Assembly (NCBI RefSeq): GCF_916858655.1
Contig: NZ_CAKASL010000002.1
Coordinates: 558,001 to 622,000 of the forward strand
Direction: 5' to 3'
Length of the DNA: 64,000 bases
DNA from: Aeromicrobium sp. Leaf350
GTDB taxonomy: Bacteria; Actinomycetota; Actinomycetes; Propionibacteriales; Nocardioidaceae
Part shown: piece by piece, positions 25,685 to 39,724 of the stretch
Layout: the number at the start of each line of letters is the position of its first letter
How positions within the stretch are numbered: the stretch's first letter is position 1
Position numbers and translations under genes: made by a program
Notes under the pieces: model-generated
Database searches by the model: none
Told to the model about the DNA's origin: nothing
The model's input: only the letters and a program-made list of their open reading frames with translations

Positions 25685-25801
25685 TCAGTCGGCAGCGGGG
25701 GCGTCCTCGGACGCCTCCGCGTCGGCCCCCGGGATCGCGCAGACGCCGTCGACGCACACCGGGGCGTCGGCGTCGCCCACGAGCTCGAACGGGCCGCTCA
25801 C
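25685..25801 (-). CDS. 38-residue CxxxxC protein coupled to dsbA
   Basis: GTG at 25801 overlaps the DsbA stop (GTGA). It codes MSGPFELVGDADAPVCVDGVC followed by an acidic tail AIPGADAEASEDAPAAD. The two Cys in CVDGVC and the position right behind a thiol oxidoreductase suggest a redox or metal-binding role, or a DsbA substrate. Similar short FxLVGD..VCVDGVC peptides seem familiar from other actinobacteria, but I cannot confirm that here. Confidence 0.55.
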   Translation of the reverse strand: MSGPFELVGDADAPVCVDGVCAIPGADAEASEDAPAAD

Positions 25802-26451
25802 GCGCTGGCTCCGGCCTCGGTGACGACGCGCTCCAGGGCCGACACGAACACGTCGGGGGACTGGGCGCCCGAGACCGCGAGCCGACCGTCGAACACGTAG
25901 AACGGGACGCCGCCGATGCCGTACTCGATCGCCTGCTCCTGGTCGGCCCGGACGGCGGTCAGGTAGGTGCCGTCGGCCAGGTCCTTCAGCACCGCGTCAC
26001 GGTCGAGGCCGACCTCGGCCGCCAGGTCGGCGAGCTCCTCGGCGTGGTTGAGGTTGCGGCCCTGCTCGAAGTACGCGGCGAGCAGCCGCTCCTTGAGCTC
26101 GGCCTGCAGCCCGTGGGCCTTGGCGTGGTGCAGGGCCTGGTGGGCCAGCACCGTGTTCGCGTGCTGCAGGGAGCCGAAGTCGTACGCCAGCCCCTCGCCC
26201 GCGGCGAGCTCGGTCATCTGCGCCAGCATCTGCTCGGCCTGGGCCGTGGGCATCCCCTTGTGCTTCGCCAGGAACTCCGCCTCGGTGCCCGCGTAGTCGA
26301 CGGGCGTGTCGGGGGAGAGCTCGAAGGAGTGGTACTCGACCTCGACCTCCCCGTCGAAGCGGGCCACGGCCTGCTCGAAGCGACGCTTGCCCACGAAGCA
26401 CCAGGGGCAGGCGATGTCGGACCACACGTCGACCTTCACCACATTGCTCAT
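25798..26451 (-). CDS. DsbA-family (FrnE-like) oxidoreductase
   Basis: 217 residues, no signal peptide. The thioredoxin-fold active site is SDIACPWCFVGKRRFEQA near residue 15 with the CPWC pair; the cis-Pro segment is GIGGVPFYVFDGRLAVSGAQ. This matches cytoplasmic FrnE-like members used in polyketide metabolism and oxidative-stress defence. Divergent from the NRPS-like gene by 74 bp. Confidence 0.88.
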   Translation of the reverse strand: MSNVVKVDVWSDIACPWCFVGKRRFEQAVARFDGEVEVEYHSFELSPDTPVDYAGTEAEFLAKHKGMPTAQAEQMLAQMTELAAGEGLAYDFGSLQHANTVLAHQALHHAKAHGLQAELKERLLAAYFEQGRNLNHAEELADLAAEVGLDRDAVLKDLADGTYLTAVRADQEQAIEYGIGGVPFYVFDGRLAVSGAQSPDVFVSALERVVTEAGASA

Positions 26452-26525
26452 GACTCGTCCAACAGCACGATCGACGCGCCTGTTCCCGTCACCGGGCGTT
26501 CACCTGCGCGTGGGAGCATCGGCCG

Positions 26526-29500
26526 GTGACCGACCCCGCGGCCTCGCCGCTGCTTCGATCCGCGACCGCCCCGTCGCCCCGCACTCTCGTCGAGGTGCTC
26601 CGCACGACGGCCGAGACGGTCCCCGAGTCGCCCGCGGTCGACAACGGGGCCGAGGTCCTGACCTACGCGGAGTTCTGGGAGCGTGCCTCGCTCCTGGCCG
26701 ACGAGCTGCACGCACTCGGGGTCGGGCGCGGTGACCGTGTGGGCGTCCGCATCGACTCCGGGACCGTCGACCTGTACACCGCGATCGCCGGGGTCCTCGT
26801 CGCAGGGGCCGCCTACGTCCCGGTCGACGTGGACGACCCCGCTGAGCGCGCGCGCACGGTGCTCGGCGAGGCGGCGGTCGCCGCCGTCGTCGGTGACGGG
26901 CTCCAGGTCGCGCTGCGCCGTCCGGCCCGTGAGCTCACGGAGGACGAGCGGGCGTTCCCCACCACGGAGGACGACGCCTGGATCATCTTCACCTCCGGCT
27001 CGACCGGCACGCCCAAGGGTGTCGCCGTGCGGCACCGCAACGCGGCCGCGTTCGTCGACGCGGAGGCCCGCTGGTTCCTCGCGGACGCCCCGCTCGGGCC
27101 GGGCGACCGCGTGATGGCCGGACTCTCGGTCGCCTTCGACGCGTCCTGCGAGGAGATGTGGCTCGCCTGGCGCCACGGCGCGTGCCTCGTCCCCGCTCCG
27201 CGCTCGCTCGTCAAGAGCGGCGCCGAGCTCGGCGGCTGGCTCGTCGCCAACGGCATCACGGTCGTCTCGACCGTCCCGACCCTCGTGTCGCTCTGGCCGA
27301 CCTCGGCCCTCGACCGGGTTCGCCTGCTGATCCTCGGCGGCGAGGCGTGCCCGCCCGAGATCGGCGCCCGGCTCGCCACGCCGGACCGCGAGGTCTGGAA
27401 CACCTACGGCCCCACCGAGGCCACGGTCGTCGCCTGCGGCGCCCGGCTCGGTCCCGAGGGACCCGTCCGCATCGGTCTGCCGCTCGACGGCTGGGACCTC
27501 GCGGTGGTCGACGCCGAGGGCCGCCCGGTGCCCGAGGGCGCGAGCGGCGAGCTGATCATCGGCGGGGTCGGCCTGGCCCGCTACCTCGACCCGGCCAAGG
27601 ACGCCGAGAAGTACGCGGCGATGCCGACGCTCGGCTGGGACCGCGCGTACCGCAGCGGCGACGTCGTCGTGAACGACCCGGAGGGCCTGCTCTTCACGGG
27701 CCGGGCCGACGACCAGGTCAAGATCGGTGGCCGCCGCATCGAGCTGGGCGAGCTCGACAGCGCGTTGCTGGGCCTTCCGGGGGTCGTGGCCGCTGCGGCG
27801 GCCATTCGCAAGAGTGCGGCCGGCAACACGGTCCTGGTCGGCTACGTGCGCGTCGACGACGCGTTCGACAGCGCCGCGGCGACCCAGCACCTGCGGGCGA
27901 CGATGCCGGCGGCCCTCGTGCCGCGGCTCGCCCAGGTCGACACGATCCCCACGCGCACGTCAGGCAAGGTCGACCGCGACGCGCTGCCGTGGCCGCTCCC
28001 TGCGGACGAGTCGGCCACGGCCCATCTCGGTCCGGGCGCGACCTGGTTGGCCCAGATCTGGCGCGACCTCCTGGGGGCCAGCCCCGACGGGGCGGACGCC
28101 GACTTCTTCGACCTCGGCGGCGGGAGCCTGACAGCGGCCCAGCTCGTCGCGCGGGTCCGCGAGGAGGTCCCCGAGCTGACCGTGGCGGACGTCTACGAGC
28201 ACCCGACGCTCGGCGACCTCGCCACGGTGCTGGAGTCGCTGCGCGGTCGCGACTCGCGCTCCAACGAGACGGTCCACCCCGTGCCGGTCGGGTCGCAGAT
28301 CGCCCTCTCGGTCGCCACGGTGGTCGCCCGGACGGTGGGCGGGCTGCGGTGGCTCGCCTGGACGGGGGTCGGCGTGCTCGCCGCCCGGTCGGCCTTCGAC
28401 GCGGCGTGGCTGCCGGACCTGTCCTGGGCCTGGGTGGCGGTCCTCTGGGTCCTGCTCGTGCTGCCGCCGGGCCGGATCCTCGTGGCTGCCGCCCTCGTCC
28501 GCGCCGTCCTCCTCGGAGTGCGCCCGGGCACCTATCGTCGAGGCGGGGCCACCCACGTGCGGGTCTGGTTCGCCGAACGGCTCGCCGACGAGGTCGGGGC
28601 CACCAGCCTGTCCTCCGCCGCATTGACGACCGTGTACGCCAAGCTGCTCGGCTGCTCGGTGGGGCGTGGCGTCGACCTCCACACGATCCCGCCCGTGACG
28701 GGCCTGCTGACGCTCGGTGCGCACTGCTCGCTCGAGCCCGAGGTCGACGTGGCCGGCCACTGGGTCGACGGCGGCACGTTCCACCTCGGTCGGGTCACGG
28801 TCGGCAAGAACGCCCGGGTCGGCACCCGGAGCACGCTGGCCGGGGGAGCGAGCGTCGGGGCGGGCGCCGAGATCGCGCCCGGATCCGCCGTGTTCGGACC
28901 GGTGCCCGAGGGCGAGTACTGGTCCGGGGCGCCGGCGGAGGCCGTCGGCCCGGCGCGAGGTCCGGCGGTGTCGACCAAGGCCCGCCGCAGTCCCGCCTGG
29001 ATGGTTGCGTACGCCGTGACCGCACCTGCGCTCGCTGCGCTTCCGGGTCTGTGCGTGGCCGTGGCTGCCCTGGCCTGGGTCGCCGTCGCGGGGTTCCCCG
29101 ACGACCTCGGGTCGGCGCTGCTGACGGCGGGCATCGCGGTGCCTCTCGTGACCCTCGCCGCTGGAGTGCTCCTCGCCGGCGCGATCATCGCCGTCGTGCG
29201 GCTGCAGTCGCACGGCCTGCAGCCCGGCACGCATCCCATCCACGGCTCGCAGGCCTGGCGCGCGTGGACGGTCCTTCGCGTGCTCGACGAGGCCCGCAGT
29301 TGGCTCTTCCCGCTCTACTCCAGCTTCCTCACCCCGACGTGGCTCCGGCTGCTCGGCGCCAAGATCGGCGACGACGTCGAGGCGTCGACCGTGCTGATGA
29401 TCCCGAGCCTCACCACGGTCAACGACGGCGCCTTCCTCGCCGACGACACGATGCTCGGGATGTACGAGCTCGGCGGTGGCTGGTTGCGGGTCGAACGCGT

Positions 29501-30389
29501 CAAGATCGGTCGCCGGGCCTTCGTCGGCAACTCCGGGATGACCGCTCCGGGCCGCAAGGTGCCGAAGGGCGGGCTGGTCGCCGTGCTGTCGGCGGCTCCT
29601 CGACGCGGCACCGCGAAGGCGGGGTCCTCGTGGCTCGGCAGCCCTCCCACGCAGCTGCGCCGGTCGGCGGGCGAGAGCGACGCCTCCCGCACGTTCGCCC
29701 CGGCGCGACGTCTGCGGGTCCTGCGGGCGCTCGTCGAGACCTGTCGCATCACCGCGGTCTGGGTGTCGGCCTGGATCGGTGTGCTCGTCGTCGCCGCGCT
29801 GCTCCTCCTGCTGGACCGGACGTCGGTCGGCGTCACAGCGCTCGTGGGCGGCCTGGTGCTCGCGGGCGCGGGCCTGCTCGCGGCGTCCGTGTCGACGCTC
29901 GCGAAGTGGTCACTCGTCGGTCGCGTGCGCGCCGGCGGTCATCCGCTGTGGAGCGGGTTCGTCTGGCGCAACGAGCTGGCGGACGCCTTCGTCGAGGTCG
30001 TCGCCGCACCCTGGTTCACGCGGCACGTCCTGGCGACGCCCCTGCTCAACGCGTGGCTGCGCTCGCTGGGCGCAAGGATCGGGCGCGGCGTCTGGTGCGA
30101 GTCCTACTGGCTGCCCGAGACCGACCTCGTCCGGCTCGACGCCGGCAGCACGGTCAATCGAGGGTGCGTGGTGCAGACCCACCTGTTCCATGATCGGATA
30201 CTCAGCATGGACACGGTCAGGTTCGCTGCGGGAGCCACCCTCGGACCTCACGGCGTCGTGCTCCCGGCCGCGTCGCTGGGTCGCCACGCCACCGTCGGAC
30301 CGGTCTCGCTCGTGATGCGGGGCGAGGGCGTCCCGGCCAAGACCCGCTGGATCGGCAACCCCATCGGCCCGTGGGTCGATGCCGGATGA
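26526..30389 (+). CDS. Pls/PosA-family nonribosomal peptide synthetase (poly-amino-acid polymerase type)
   Basis: 1287 residues from GTG. Adenylation domain about 20-500: A3 IIFTSGSTGTPKGVAVRH, A4 FDASCEEMW, A5 NTYGPTEATV, A7 YRSGDVV, A8 KIGGRRIELGELDS, A10 TRTSGKVDRDALP. Carrier domain with phosphopantetheine Ser534 in LGGGSLTAA. No condensation or thioesterase domain. The rest has six membrane helices around three tandem hexapeptide-repeat (acyltransferase-like) domains, for example VTVGKNARVGTRSTLAGGAS. This is exactly the layout of epsilon-poly-lysine synthetase, where the C-terminal domains join activated monomers into an isopeptide chain. The Asp in A4 indicates an alpha-amino acid; the acidic EE nearby may favour a basic side chain (inference). 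The product is not known. Confidence 0.88.
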   Translation: MTDPAASPLLRSATAPSPRTLVEVLRTTAETVPESPAVDNGAEVLTYAEFWERASLLADELHALGVGRGDRVGVRIDSGTVDLYTAIAGVLVAGAAYVPVDVDDPAERARTVLGEAAVAAVVGDGLQVALRRPARELTEDERAFPTTEDDAWIIFTSGSTGTPKGVAVRHRNAAAFVDAEARWFLADAPLGPGDRVMAGLSVAFDASCEEMWLAWRHGACLVPAPRSLVKSGAELGGWLVANGITVVSTVPTLVSLWPTSALDRVRLLILGGEACPPEIGARLATPDREVWNTYGPTEATVVACGARLGPEGPVRIGLPLDGWDLAVVDAEGRPVPEGASGELIIGGVGLARYLDPAKDAEKYAAMPTLGWDRAYRSGDVVVNDPEGLLFTGRADDQVKIGGRRIELGELDSALLGLPGVVAAAAAIRKSAAGNTVLVGYVRVDDAFDSAAATQHLRATMPAALVPRLAQVDTIPTRTSGKVDRDALPWPLPADESATAHLGPGATWLAQIWRDLLGASPDGADADFFDLGGGSLTAAQLVARVREEVPELTVADVYEHPTLGDLATVLESLRGRDSRSNETVHPVPVGSQIALSVATVVARTVGGLRWLAWTGVGVLAARSAFDAAWLPDLSWAWVAVLWVLLVLPPGRILVAAALVRAVLLGVRPGTYRRGGATHVRVWFAERLADEVGATSLSSAALTTVYAKLLGCSVGRGVDLHTIPPVTGLLTLGAHCSLEPEVDVAGHWVDGGTFHLGRVTVGKNARVGTRSTLAGGASVGAGAEIAPGSAVFGPVPEGEYWSGAPAEAVGPARGPAVSTKARRSPAWMVAYAVTAPALAALPGLCVAVAALAWVAVAGFPDDLGSALLTAGIAVPLVTLAAGVLLAGAIIAVVRLQSHGLQPGTHPIHGSQAWRAWTVLRVLDEARSWLFPLYSSFLTPTWLRLLGAKIGDDVEASTVLMIPSLTTVNDGAFLADDTMLGMYELGGGWLRVERVKIGRRAFVGNSGMTAPGRKVPKGGLVAVLSAAPRRGTAKAGSSWLGSPPTQLRRSAGESDASRTFAPARRLRVLRALVETCRITAVWVSAWIGVLVVAALLLLLDRTSVGVTALVGGLVLAGAGLLAASVSTLAKWSLVGRVRAGGHPLWSGFVWRNELADAFVEVVAAPWFTRHVLATPLLNAWLRSLGARIGRGVWCESYWLPETDLVRLDAGSTVNRGCVVQTHLFHDRILSMDTVRFAAGATLGPHGVVLPAASLGRHATVGPVSLVMRGEGVPAKTRWIGNPIGPWVDAG

Positions 30390-31711
30390 GGGGTCCGCTC
30401 AGTCGCCTGCGGGGCCCCCGGGGCAACGACGTCTACGTGCCGCACCACGGTGATCCGACGTTCCGCGTGCGGCACTACGACCTGGACCTGACGATCGTGC
30501 TCGTCACGAACTCGCTGTCCGGCGTCGCGACCCTGTCCTGCCACGCGCTCGAGGACCTCGACGACTTCGCGCTCGACCTCTACCGGCTGCGCGTCTCGAA
30601 GATCAAGGTCGACGGCGCCGCCCCGGCCAAGTTCACGCAGCGCCAGCACCGACTCGTGGTGAGGCCCCGGCGCACGATCCCGGCCGGCACCGACTTCACG
30701 GTCCAGGTGGCCTACCACGGGTCGCCGCAGCCGATGCCCGGGCCGGACGGCGAGGCCGGCTGGGAGGAGCTCGCCGACGGCCTGATCGTCGCTTCGCAGC
30801 CGCACGGGGCACCCAGCTGGTACCCGTGCAACGACCGGCCGGACGACAAGGCCACCTACGGCTTCGAGATCACGGTGCCCCAGGGCTACACCGCCGTCGC
30901 GAACGGTCGAGCCGGCCAGACGCGTCGGCGGGGGAGCACGGTCCGCTGGTCGTACACGGAGTCGTCGCCCATGGCCAGCTATCTCGCCACGGTGCAGGTC
31001 GGTCGCTACGTGGCGCTGACGGGCAAGGCCGCCGGGGTCGAGCTCACGACCTGGTGCCCGCCGGGGCGCAAGTCCCAGGTCGCCGACGCCTTCGGCGACC
31101 AGCCCGCGATGGTCGAGGCCTTCAGTCGGCTCTTCGGCCCGTACCCGTTCGACACGTACGCGGCGGTCGTGACCGACGACGAGCTCGAGATCCCGCTCGA
31201 GGCGCACAGCCTGTCGATCTTCGGGTCGAACCTCGCCGATCGCGACTGGGCCGCCCAGCGCCTCATCGCGCACGAGCTGGCCCATCAGTGGTTCGGCAAC
31301 AGCGTGACGCTGCAGCACTGGCGCGACATCTGGCTGCACGAGGGCTTCGCCTGCTACGCGGAGTGGCTTTGGTCGGAGGAGTCCGGGGGGCTCACGGCAG
31401 ACGCGCAGGCGCAGGAGCACCACGACCTCCTGTCCGGCCTGCGTCAGGACCTGGTGCTGTCGGACCCCGGGCCGGACGACATGTTCGACGACCGGGTCTA
31501 CAAGCGGGGCGCGCTCATGCTCCACGCCCTGCGACTCAGGCTCGGCGACGAGGCCTTCTTCGAGCTGCTGCGCACCTGGTCGGAGCGGTTCCGGCACGCC
31601 AACGTCACGACCGACGACTTCGTCGACCTGGTGGCGGAGACGACCGGGGTCGACGGCGCCGACTTCTTCGGCGCATGGCTCGACCACACGGCGCTGCCGC
31701 CGCTCACCTGA
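30386..31711 (+). CDS. M1-family zinc metallopeptidase (aminopeptidase N-like)
   Basis: 441 residues, start at the ATGA overlap with the synthetase. Zinc motif HELAH followed by exactly 18 residues and E (IWLHEGFACYAEW) is the gluzincin HEXXH-X18-E. The usual GAMEN loop is changed to EIPLEAHSLS. No signal peptide or membrane segment. Short M1 proteins without the C-terminal helical domain are common in actinobacteria. Because M1-type enzymes are reported to degrade epsilon-poly-lysine in its producer, the coupling to the Pls-like gene may mean product turnover. Convergent with the next gene, overlapping it by 8 bp. Confidence 0.87.
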   Translation: MRGPLSRLRGPRGNDVYVPHHGDPTFRVRHYDLDLTIVLVTNSLSGVATLSCHALEDLDDFALDLYRLRVSKIKVDGAAPAKFTQRQHRLVVRPRRTIPAGTDFTVQVAYHGSPQPMPGPDGEAGWEELADGLIVASQPHGAPSWYPCNDRPDDKATYGFEITVPQGYTAVANGRAGQTRRRGSTVRWSYTESSPMASYLATVQVGRYVALTGKAAGVELTTWCPPGRKSQVADAFGDQPAMVEAFSRLFGPYPFDTYAAVVTDDELEIPLEAHSLSIFGSNLADRDWAAQRLIAHELAHQWFGNSVTLQHWRDIWLHEGFACYAEWLWSEESGGLTADAQAQEHHDLLSGLRQDLVLSDPGPDDMFDDRVYKRGALMLHALRLRLGDEAFFELLRTWSERFRHANVTTDDFVDLVAETTGVDGADFFGAWLDHTALPPLT

Positions 31712-32159
31712 CGACGACCTCCCAGGGGCCGTCGGTGTCGACGGCGACGGCGGCCACGCACCCGGGTGGGGTCGTGAGCGAGCGGGCCACGAGGTGCTCC
31801 GGAGGCGGCGCGGTGATGCCGCTGCCGGCGCACTTGCCGCGCGCCTCGTGCTGCACCCATCCCTCGCGGCCGGGGCCGTCGACGTCGACCCCCACCGCGG
31901 CGTCCTCGCACCACGCGACGACCGCGACGTCGTCGTGGCGCGAGAGGCTCACGTGCCCGGCGCGAGGGCTCGGTGCCGGACCGGCGAGGCGCACGACGGG
32001 CCGTCCGTGGTCGCTGGCGCCGCAGGCCGGACACACCCGGCTCTCGACCACCTGGTCGAGGCCGGTGCCCAGAGCGGTGGCCACGGCGCGCCGCAGCAGC
32101 TGCTCGTCGTCCGCGTGCCCCCACGTCACCTCGACGCGGACCGGGCGCTTCGTCTCCAC
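31704..32159 (-). CDS. Compact 4'-phosphopantetheinyl transferase-like protein
   Basis: 151 residues from GTG 32159, chosen because the gene diverges from mpg at 32187. Near residue 75-110 it has VSLSRHDDVAVVAWCED, then GVDVDGPGREGWVQHEARGK, which resembles the Mg-binding GxD and the WxxxEAxxK motif of PPTases but with only about ten residues between them instead of thirty to forty. It could activate the carrier domain of the Pls-like enzyme. The shortened core leaves doubt about activity. A CPACG motif precedes it. Confidence 0.55.
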   Translation of the reverse strand: METKRPVRVEVTWGHADDEQLLRRAVATALGTGLDQVVESRVCPACGASDHGRPVVRLAGPAPSPRAGHVSLSRHDDVAVVAWCEDAAVGVDVDGPGREGWVQHEARGKCAGSGITAPPPEHLVARSLTTPPGCVAAVAVDTDGPWEVVVR

Positions 32160-32186: not shown

Positions 32187-32771
32187 ATGGACGCAACGGC
32201 TCGGGTCCGCCTCGACGGCCCGGTGGACGTGCGGGCCCGCGAGCTGCTCGGGCGCACCTTCACCGCCCACGGCGTCACGGTCGTGCTGACCGAGGTCGAG
32301 GCCTACGGCGGCACCGAGGACCCGGCTTCCCACGCCTTCACGCGCACGCCACGCTCCGAGATCATGTACGGCGCCTCCGGCCGGTTGTACGTGTACCGCT
32401 CATACGGGATCCACCACTGCGCGAACGTCGTGACGGGACCCACCGAGCAGGCGGCCGCCGTGCTGCTCAGGGCGGGCCGCGTCGTCGAGGGCCTCGAGCT
32501 CGCGCGCGAGCGTCGCGGCCCCGTCGCCGATCCACGCCTGGCCCGCGGGCCAGGGAATCTCGCCCAGGCGCTCGGCATCACGCTGGCCGACCTCGGCACG
32601 CCCGTCACCGAGGGGGACGGGTTCGGCCTCGGCGAGCGCGTCGAGGACCCCGACGTCGTGGCCGGCCCTCGCGTCGGCGTCTCGCTCGCTGCCGACGTGC
32701 CCTGGCGCTTCTGGATCGCCGGCGACCCGACCGTCTCGGCCTACCGCCGATCCCCGCGCGCGCCTCGATAG
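32187..32771 (+). CDS. mpg: 3-methyladenine DNA glycosylase (AAG/MPG family)
   Basis: 194 residues. Base-excision repair enzyme for alkylated purines. Catalytic Glu and Tyr intercalation region are in VVLTEVEAYGGTEDPASHAF, MYGASGRLYVYRSYGIHHC is the classic AAG motif and RLARGPGNLAQALGI the next. GGGGG lies just before ATG. It directly precedes tyrS as in mycobacteria. Confidence 0.92.
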   Translation: MDATARVRLDGPVDVRARELLGRTFTAHGVTVVLTEVEAYGGTEDPASHAFTRTPRSEIMYGASGRLYVYRSYGIHHCANVVTGPTEQAAAVLLRAGRVVEGLELARERRGPVADPRLARGPGNLAQALGITLADLGTPVTEGDGFGLGERVEDPDVVAGPRVGVSLAADVPWRFWIAGDPTVSAYRRSPRAPR

Positions 32772-32781: not shown

Positions 32782-34038
32782 ATGACCCACGTCCTCGACG
32801 ACCTCGACGCGCGCGGCCTCCTCGCGCACACGACCGATGCCGACGCCCTGCGCGCGGCACTCGACGACGGACCGATCACCTACTACGTCGGATTCGACCC
32901 GACGGCGCCGAGCCTCCACGTGGGCAACCTGCTGCAGCTCCTGACCGCCAGGCGGCTCCAGCTCGCGGGACACCGCCCGCTCGTCCTGGTCGGCGGCTCG
33001 ACGGGGCTGATCGGCGACCCGAAGCAGTCCGGCGAGCGCGTCATGAACAGCCCCGAGACCGTCGCGGGCTGGGTCGAACGCATCCGCGAGCAGGTCTCGC
33101 AGTTCGTCTCGTTCGAGGGCGAGAACGCGGCCACGGTGGTCAACAACCTCGACTGGACCAGCCAGATCAACACGATCGACTTCCTGCGCGACATCGGCAA
33201 GCACTTCCCGGTCAACCGGATGCTCGCCCGCGACGTCGTCAGCAGTCGCCTCGAGTCCGGCATCAGCTACACCGAGTTCAGCTACGTGCTGCTGCAGTCG
33301 CTGGACTTCCTCGAGCTGTACCGCCGACACGGCTGCGTGCTGCAGACGGGCGGCAGCGACCAGTGGGGCAACCTCACGGCCGGCGTCGAGCTGATCCGGC
33401 GCTCCGACGGCGGCAAGGCCCACGCACTGGCCACCCCGCTCATCACCAAGGCCGACGGCACCAAGTTCGGCAAGACGGAGTCCGGCACGATCTGGCTCGA
33501 TCCGGACCTCATGAGCCCCTACGCGTTCCACCAGGCGTGGATCCAGGCCGAGGACACGAAGGTGGGGGAGTACCTCAAGCAGTTCACCTTCCTGCCGGTC
33601 GAGGAGGTGGACGCCCTGATGGCCGAGCACGCCGAGGCCCCGGGACGCCGCCTGCCCCAGCGCAGGCTCGCCCGCGAGCTCACGACGCTCGTGCACGGGG
33701 AGGCAGAGGCCGACGCCGCCGAGCTGGCCGCCACGGCCCTGTTCGGGCGAGGGCAGCTGGAGGACCTCCCGGAGTCGACCCTGGCGGCGGCCCTCGCCGG
33801 CGCGGGCGTCTCCGAGCTGTCGGCGGAGGCGACCATCACGGACGCCCTGGTGGCGGCCGGACTGTCCGACAGCCGTTCCGCGGCCCGTCGCGCCGTGACC
33901 GAGGGGGGCGCCTACGTGAACAACGTGCGCGTGGACGATCCGGAGCAGACGCTGGGCGCCACCACGCCGCTGCACGGTTCCTGGCTCGTCGTCCGGCGCG
34001 GAAAGCGCCAAATTGCAGGCGTGAAACTACATCCGTGA
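32782..34038 (+). CDS. tyrS: Tyrosine--tRNA ligase
   Basis: 418 residues. Class I synthetase: HIGH-like motif in DPTAPSLHVGNLLQL, tyrosine-binding GGSDQWGNLTAGVELIRR and KMSKS-like KFGKTESG. An S4 RNA-binding domain ends the protein (SRSAARRAVTEGGAYVNNVR). Charges tRNA-Tyr. The gene is followed by the rRNA operon promoter region with no clear terminator between. Confidence 0.95.
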   Translation: MTHVLDDLDARGLLAHTTDADALRAALDDGPITYYVGFDPTAPSLHVGNLLQLLTARRLQLAGHRPLVLVGGSTGLIGDPKQSGERVMNSPETVAGWVERIREQVSQFVSFEGENAATVVNNLDWTSQINTIDFLRDIGKHFPVNRMLARDVVSSRLESGISYTEFSYVLLQSLDFLELYRRHGCVLQTGGSDQWGNLTAGVELIRRSDGGKAHALATPLITKADGTKFGKTESGTIWLDPDLMSPYAFHQAWIQAEDTKVGEYLKQFTFLPVEEVDALMAEHAEAPGRRLPQRRLARELTTLVHGEAEADAAELAATALFGRGQLEDLPESTLAAALAGAGVSELSAEATITDALVAAGLSDSRSAARRAVTEGGAYVNNVRVDDPEQTLGATTPLHGSWLVVRRGKRQIAGVKLHP

Positions 34039-34532: not shown

Positions 34533-39491
<4,959 letters not shown>

Positions 39492-39605
39492 CCACTACGA
39501 AGTCGCGTCCACTGTGAGGTTCCTGAGCTACGGCCGGGAACCATGAGAACTGCGCCGATCATTGATCGGTGGCAGCGTCTCGCTTGGTTTTGTCAGCTCA
39601 ATAGA

Positions 39606-39724
39606 GTTTCGGCGACCATGGCGAAGGGGAAATACCCGGTTACATTCCGAACCCGGAAGTCAAGCCCTTCAGCGCCGATGGTACTGCACTGGAGACGGTG
39701 TGGGAGAGTAGGACGTCGCCGGAC
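39606..39724 (+). rRNA. rrf: 5S ribosomal RNA
   Basis: About 119 nt. The ends TTTCGGCGAC and GTCGCCGGA form helix I; ACCCGGTTACATTCCGAACC is the conserved loop region. It follows 23S by about 114 bp; the spacer has the palindrome CCGATCATTGATCGG near 39557. Confidence 0.95.

Follow-up and report, generated by a model that had tools for sequence, protein, structure and literature searches.

The 64-kb window analysed here (positions 558,001 to 622,000 of contig NZ_CAKASL010000002.1) is part of the 3.5-Mb genome of Aeromicrobium sp. Leaf350 (Nocardioidaceae) and contains a gene for a Pls-type synthetase (pls), a gene for an M1 zinc peptidase on the same strand and a small convergent gene resembling phosphopantetheinyl transferases (PPTases). 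The gene order is frnE-like (-), pls (+), M1 peptidase (+), PPTase-like (-), glycosylase, tyrS and then a ribosomal RNA (rRNA) operon (Table 1). The pls and peptidase genes share 4 nt (ATGA), the PPTase-like gene overlaps the 3' end of the peptidase gene by 8 nt, and all three have open frames and conserved counterparts. The locus is very probably the pls-pldII operon of Aeromicrobium. At its core, the finding extends a known system to a new host, because an operon with a 4-bp overlap has been published (PMC4361855) and non-streptomycete carriers are known (PMC8117764).

Table 1. Features of the pls locus, with positions in the window
Feature	Position	Strand	Basis
frnE-like gene	25798-26451	-	Pfam DSBA match
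frnE-like/pls intergenic gap, 74 bp	26452..26525	no strand	gene coordinates
pls, Pls-type synthetase resembling nonribosomal peptide synthetases, 1287 aa, GTG start	26526..30389	+	TIGR02353, 656 bits; 7wew A domain, 619 bits
adenylation domain core, PF00501, residues 26-352	26601..27581	+	Pfam
carrier (T) domain, PF00550, residues 507-568	28044..28229	+	Pfam
TIGR02353 terminal domain, residues 597-1280	28314..30365	+	NCBIfam, structure model
pldII-like M1 zinc peptidase, 441 aa	30386..31711	+	Pfam M1 domains, zinc site, co-occurrence with pls
EIPLEAHS, aligned with the exopeptidase motif GxMEN	31187..31210	+	alignment
HELAH-X18-E zinc site, residues 296-319 of the peptidase	31271..31342	+	sequence
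compact PPTase-like gene, 151 aa from GTG	31704..32159	-	iterated profile, predicted fold
methylpurine-DNA glycosylase gene, ATG at 32187, divergent from the PPTase-like gene	32187-32768	+	PF02245
tyrS	32782-34038		profile match

The synthetase comprises an AMP-binding adenylation (A) domain, a carrier domain and a terminal domain matching TIGR02353 ('Pls/PosA family') above the cut-off of 423 bits, and Pfam and NCBIfam scans detected no condensation or thioesterase domain in it, in agreement with the Pls/PosA-type architecture proposed in the initial annotation. Ser534 of the carrier domain sits in its GGGS attachment motif. In a medium-confidence model, the terminal domain is built from a membrane helix pair and a beta-rich domain, probably of the hexapeptide type, repeated three times; a hexapeptide profile matched above its cut-off only once, and Foldseek E-values were above 0.001.

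Among PDB sequences, the synthetase matches best to 7wew, an epsilon-poly-L-lysine synthetase A domain. The pocket residues of the window enzyme, assigned by GrsA numbering, are D205, A206, E209, S248, I269, G271, T293, V301 and V302, with K481 just outside the core, giving the code DAESIGTVVK, and the 7wew row of the alignment, compared by eye, holds the identical ten residues. Of 81 rows (the window and 80 near relatives), 78 share this code; the alignment failed in the remaining three, the motifs of which agree on direct inspection, except for one pattern not found in L055. It should be noted that these 80 wider loci, the top-scoring 80 among at least 588 matches, were found with patterns derived from the query and lean to close relatives, and that they overlap with the whole-genome samples described below (for example, L005/G144 and L033/G484), so that the counts are not independent.

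The polymer might instead be built from a different diamino acid, such as ornithine, diaminobutyrate (DAB), diaminopropionate (DAP) or beta-lysine, as the same enzyme family makes all of these polymers and the specificity of A domains can be relaxed (PMC10522769), but this is very unlikely given the pocket. Code position 2 is reported to be Ala in lysine enzymes, Met in ornithine enzymes and Phe in DAP/DAB enzymes (PMC10522769), and the whole window code is that of 7wew. PosA of Acinetobacter baumannii, a delta-poly-L-ornithine synthetase, has the same overall domain plan (PMC10522769), as the name of the TIGR02353 family reflects, but its code is DMEHNGTVSK (PMC10522769); a PosA-like ornithine enzyme is ruled out by Ala and Val at positions 2 and 9 of the window code versus Met and Ser in PosA, and a DAP/DAB-type enzyme by the DFE-type codes, which differ from that of the window. 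Thus, the pocket comparison suggested in the initial annotation places the enzyme with the Pls lysine code.

A class-wide survey bears on the same question. Matches to TIGR02353 occur in 104 of 393 class genomes, and the 119 match rows, less 12 from family genomes already covered and with two pieces from G466 merged, yielded 106 loci, among which 82 have the code DAESIGTVVK, 10 have DIWQSTADDK, eight have DFE-type codes and six lack an A domain in the available stretch. The lysine-type A-domain model scored 302-323 bits at the eight DFE loci versus 667-910 bits at the 82 DAE loci, which argues further against another diamino acid in the window enzyme.

Synthetase and peptidase co-occur in Nocardioidaceae. 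In a sample of 197 family genomes, pls is present in 62, and a close M1 gene in 61 of these and in none of the 135 genomes that lack pls. The cut-off for a close M1 (E-value 1e-138) was set after a gap down to 1e-88 had been seen, and the M1 of G017 was included manually (258 residues matched at a contig end, 53% identity, 8.8e-87); the pls-less genomes with similar E-values contain full-length M1 matches of about 36-43% identity. In the sole pls genome without a close M1 (G147), the locus is cut by a contig end. Both genes lie on one contig in 60 family genomes, and in 59 of these the matched stretches are -16 to 89 bases apart. Chance adjacency of the peptidase to pls is ruled out by this lock-step pattern. 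The pairwise distances of Pls and M1 also correlate (r 0.853 over 78 rows, a value reached in 0 of 999 permutations), which fits plain vertical descent as well. A single large gap among the same-contig family pairs, 821 bases, was observed in G184 (L114; G184:C1:112632-113452).

Class-wide, an M1 related to that of the window lies within the stretch at 76 of the 82 lysine-type, 0 of the 10 DIW, 4 of the 8 DFE and 0 of the 6 other loci. Among the lysine-type exceptions, G484 carries its M1 on the same contig but about 2.2 kb farther downstream, and in G326 and G538 an M1 (48% identity) is encoded at another place in the genome, whereas only a 31% relative occurs in G542 and only distant ones (27-31%) in G413 and G218. 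The initial annotation had named retention of the synthetase without the peptidase as the finding that would speak against a unit; in the family this was not observed apart from the truncated locus, and in the class it is rare.

The peptidase bears the marks of the M1 fold family, namely Pfam M1 domains and an intact HEXXH-X18-E site, as the initial annotation had read from the sequence along with the 4-nt overlap. It lacks GxMEN, the exopeptidase motif of classical M1 aminopeptidases, and has EIPLEAHS at the aligned place, so that it is not classed with these. The pattern [DE]-x-P-[LIVM]-E-[AS]-[QHV] is present in pls-linked M1 proteins at 59/59 further family loci, 76/80 wider loci and 72/76 class loci; of the eight misses, five differ solely at the final position, L272 reads AAPVEN and two are unreadable (L171 and L256), although the whole frame of L171 does contain DVPVEAQG. 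By contrast, the signature is absent from all 19 unlinked M1 relatives, which were hand-picked from the ranked M1 matches and all belong to one family, and 18 of which read [GR][YF]ALE[TN][QA]. The compact M1 metallopeptidase 6a8z/6iff, the closest solved structure by sequence, resembles the window protein in length class and zinc site but has no [DE]xPxE motif in the alignment. Among relatives of the peptidase with a name, those nearest to it are from Aeromicrobium. The window motif also differs from DVPVEAQG, found at 17 class pls loci, all from one genus (g46, presumed to be Streptomyces).

These data bear on whether an ordinary aminopeptidase has simply come to share the operon with pls. 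The M1 fold and the intact zinc site would fit such an enzyme, and M1 relatives at an E-value of 1e-20 are common, occurring in 170 of the 197 family genomes; however, the close form is in lock step with pls, the signature is confined to linked copies in the comparison above, and the coupled pldII of Streptomyces albulus degrades epsilon-poly-lysine (PMC4361855, PMC9223678), all of which makes an ordinary aminopeptidase very improbable. The window peptidase is most likely the counterpart of PldII. The shift at the EIPLEAHS place might explain the cutting of isopeptide-linked chains, and [DE]-x-P-[LIVM]-E-[AS] offers a simple candidate mark separating PldII-type enzymes from ordinary M1 peptidases.

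In S. albulus, the adjoining genes pls and pldII overlap by 4 bp and are part of a single operon (PMC4361855); pldII is described as translationally coupled to pls and as encoding the major degrading enzyme (PMC9223678). The window shares the A-domain pocket (7wew) and the overlapping downstream gene, but a convergent PPTase-like gene comes next. Corynebacterium variabile, likewise a non-streptomycete, has a two-gene pls-peptidase operon, the product of which was demonstrated with S. coelicolor as expression host, and among coryneform actinobacteria Pls genes occur widely (PMC8117764); this operon belongs to another family, and no PPTase neighbour is mentioned in the available part of the text (PMC8117764). 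The occurrence outside streptomycetes pointed out in the initial annotation was thus already known (PMC8117764).

From this anatomy, we infer the following series of events, in which substrate, linkage, export, polymer cutting and the carrier served by the PPTase are all read from sequence. L-lysine is most likely the substrate that the synthetase activates; as the adenylate, it would be loaded onto the enzyme's own carrier domain; the three membrane-embedded tandem domains would then join lysines singly via the epsilon-amino group, so that epsilon-poly-L-lysine would be made and exported by the synthetase. The coupled M1 peptidase would cut the polymer, for self-protection or turnover, and the product of the small convergent gene would most likely be a PPTase that places phosphopantetheine on the carrier domain. 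Among the three steps of making, activating and degrading, each of them deduced, activation is the weakest.

Several observations weigh against this interpretation. No close M1 was found in the genomes of three of the 82 lysine-code loci (G413, G218 and G542). The window peptidase has no signal peptide-like or membrane stretch (19-residue hydropathy maximum 1.45), whereas PldII activity has been reported outside the membrane (PMC9205021); at the other loci, 6 of 219 M1 stretches (including four that are DFE-linked) exceed 1.6, the five displayed peaking at residues 30-38, in a scan of the matched stretch alone, upstream of which signals may exist. Furthermore, no polymer was obtained from C. 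variabile in culture under the conditions tried, or from its gene when placed in C. glutamicum (PMC8117764), and the Aeromicrobium locus could likewise be silent or yield only short oligomers; this is rather unlikely, given that the three genes of the window have open frames and conserved counterparts. The remaining contrary points concern the third gene, including its occurrence in genomes that lack pls, its altered residues and its faster evolution.

The PPTase-like gene lies, as stated in the initial annotation, next to the peptidase gene in convergent orientation. The high-confidence predicted model of its protein has the Sfp fold and matched Sfp, and an iterated profile detected the gene at the same place in 20 of the 80 wider loci (one further weak match, L026, inside pls on the opposite strand, was dropped); a mis-called open reading frame is ruled out by these two results. 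The aligned proteins and Sfp-type PPTases share conserved Asp, Trp, Glu and Lys residues. With 151 aa, the window protein is shorter than Sfp chains (225-228) and PptT, PptAb and PcpS chains (197-239, fusion chains apart), its segment between the motifs is short, and PF01648 does not match it, while matching 35 of 49 aligned members. In addition, the residue before the catalytic Glu is His, in contrast to the Lys or Arg of most aligned copies, and Asp replaces the near-invariant Glu90. The ratio of nonsynonymous to synonymous substitution rates, 0.46-0.66 for the PPTase versus 0.20-0.39 for M1 in the same three comparisons, indicates faster evolution, although these figures are rough, with synonymous sites partly saturated.

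The gene is adjacent to the pls-M1 pair at 40 of 59 further family loci, and a relative is present in 57 of the 62 family genomes with pls versus 18 of the 135 without. Therefore, the conservation of the triad across Nocardioidaceae, and with it the self-contained unit envisaged in the initial annotation, holds for the pairing of synthetase and peptidase and only partly for the PPTase, so that the locus is not always a three-gene unit. Among the loci with a short downstream sequence are L044, L106, L109 and L168-L197, where lack of the gene tells little. In G043 (G043:C1:2236497-2236982), the relative lies just upstream of pls (match from 2237168) in divergent orientation, not downstream of the peptidase.

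The gene might be a mere neighbour that serves another carrier or is decaying, with a different PPTase activating Pls. Its weaker constraint and altered residues, the relatives in pls-less genomes and the incomplete adjacency would fit, as would its position outside the pls operon, which follows from its start (32159) facing that of the divergent glycosylase gene (32187). On the other hand, the confident PPTase-fold model, the association with pls and the repeated adjacency in several actinobacterial genera argue for a role with Pls, and no second protein of this type was found in the organism's own genome among the best 18 candidates scored per genome. A mere neighbour is thus a minor but appreciable possibility, and, on sequence and model, activation of Pls by the small gene is somewhat probable. 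No description of a PPTase neighbour of pls, or of the peptidase signature, turned up in the open-access literature (titles and abstract starts, among the matches listed), and the linked PPTase is a plausible addition to the known pls-pldII system. It is tentatively proposed, with somewhat less than even confidence, that Nocardioidaceae and several other actinobacterial groups have both a three-gene module with its own compact Sfp-type PPTase and a specialised pls-linked M1 subfamily, in which the signature replaces the exopeptidase motif and which takes isopeptide-linked cationic chains, possibly from within.

Aeromicrobium and its relatives thereby join the likely producers of epsilon-poly-lysine, an antimicrobial lysine chain used as a food preservative. 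In the sampled actinobacteria, the genes for making and cutting the polymer seldom occur apart, and the neighbouring PPTase might serve as a ready-made partner when Pls is expressed in other hosts.

As to the setting, a pls promoter would have to sit in the 74-bp gap that separates pls from the frnE-like gene. The chromosomal place is common to the window and another Aeromicrobium (L007), because relatives of the same genes, frnE, usp and tyrS, flank the pls-M1 pair in both. A complete rRNA operon (16S, 23S and 5S) follows tyrS at 34533-39724.

The class survey also revealed other arrangements. At four DFE-type (DAP/DAB-type) loci (L266, L267, L269 and L271), another kind of M1 lies 922-944 bp downstream on the same strand, with the motif VTALETQG and without the signature, and an M1 peptidase may have joined DFE-type synthetases separately. 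The DIWQSTADDK loci, with no M1 in the stretch, are L199-L203, L205, L240, L257, L259 and L273. The TIGR02353 loci without an A domain in the stretch (L168, L169, L185, L186, L261 and L262) are possibly split synthetases, or the stretch is too short. Finally, in a Tsukamurella (L035:9941-10408), a gene for a GNAT-type acetyltransferase (PF00583) lies between pls and the M1 gene, and a similar frame is present in L033.
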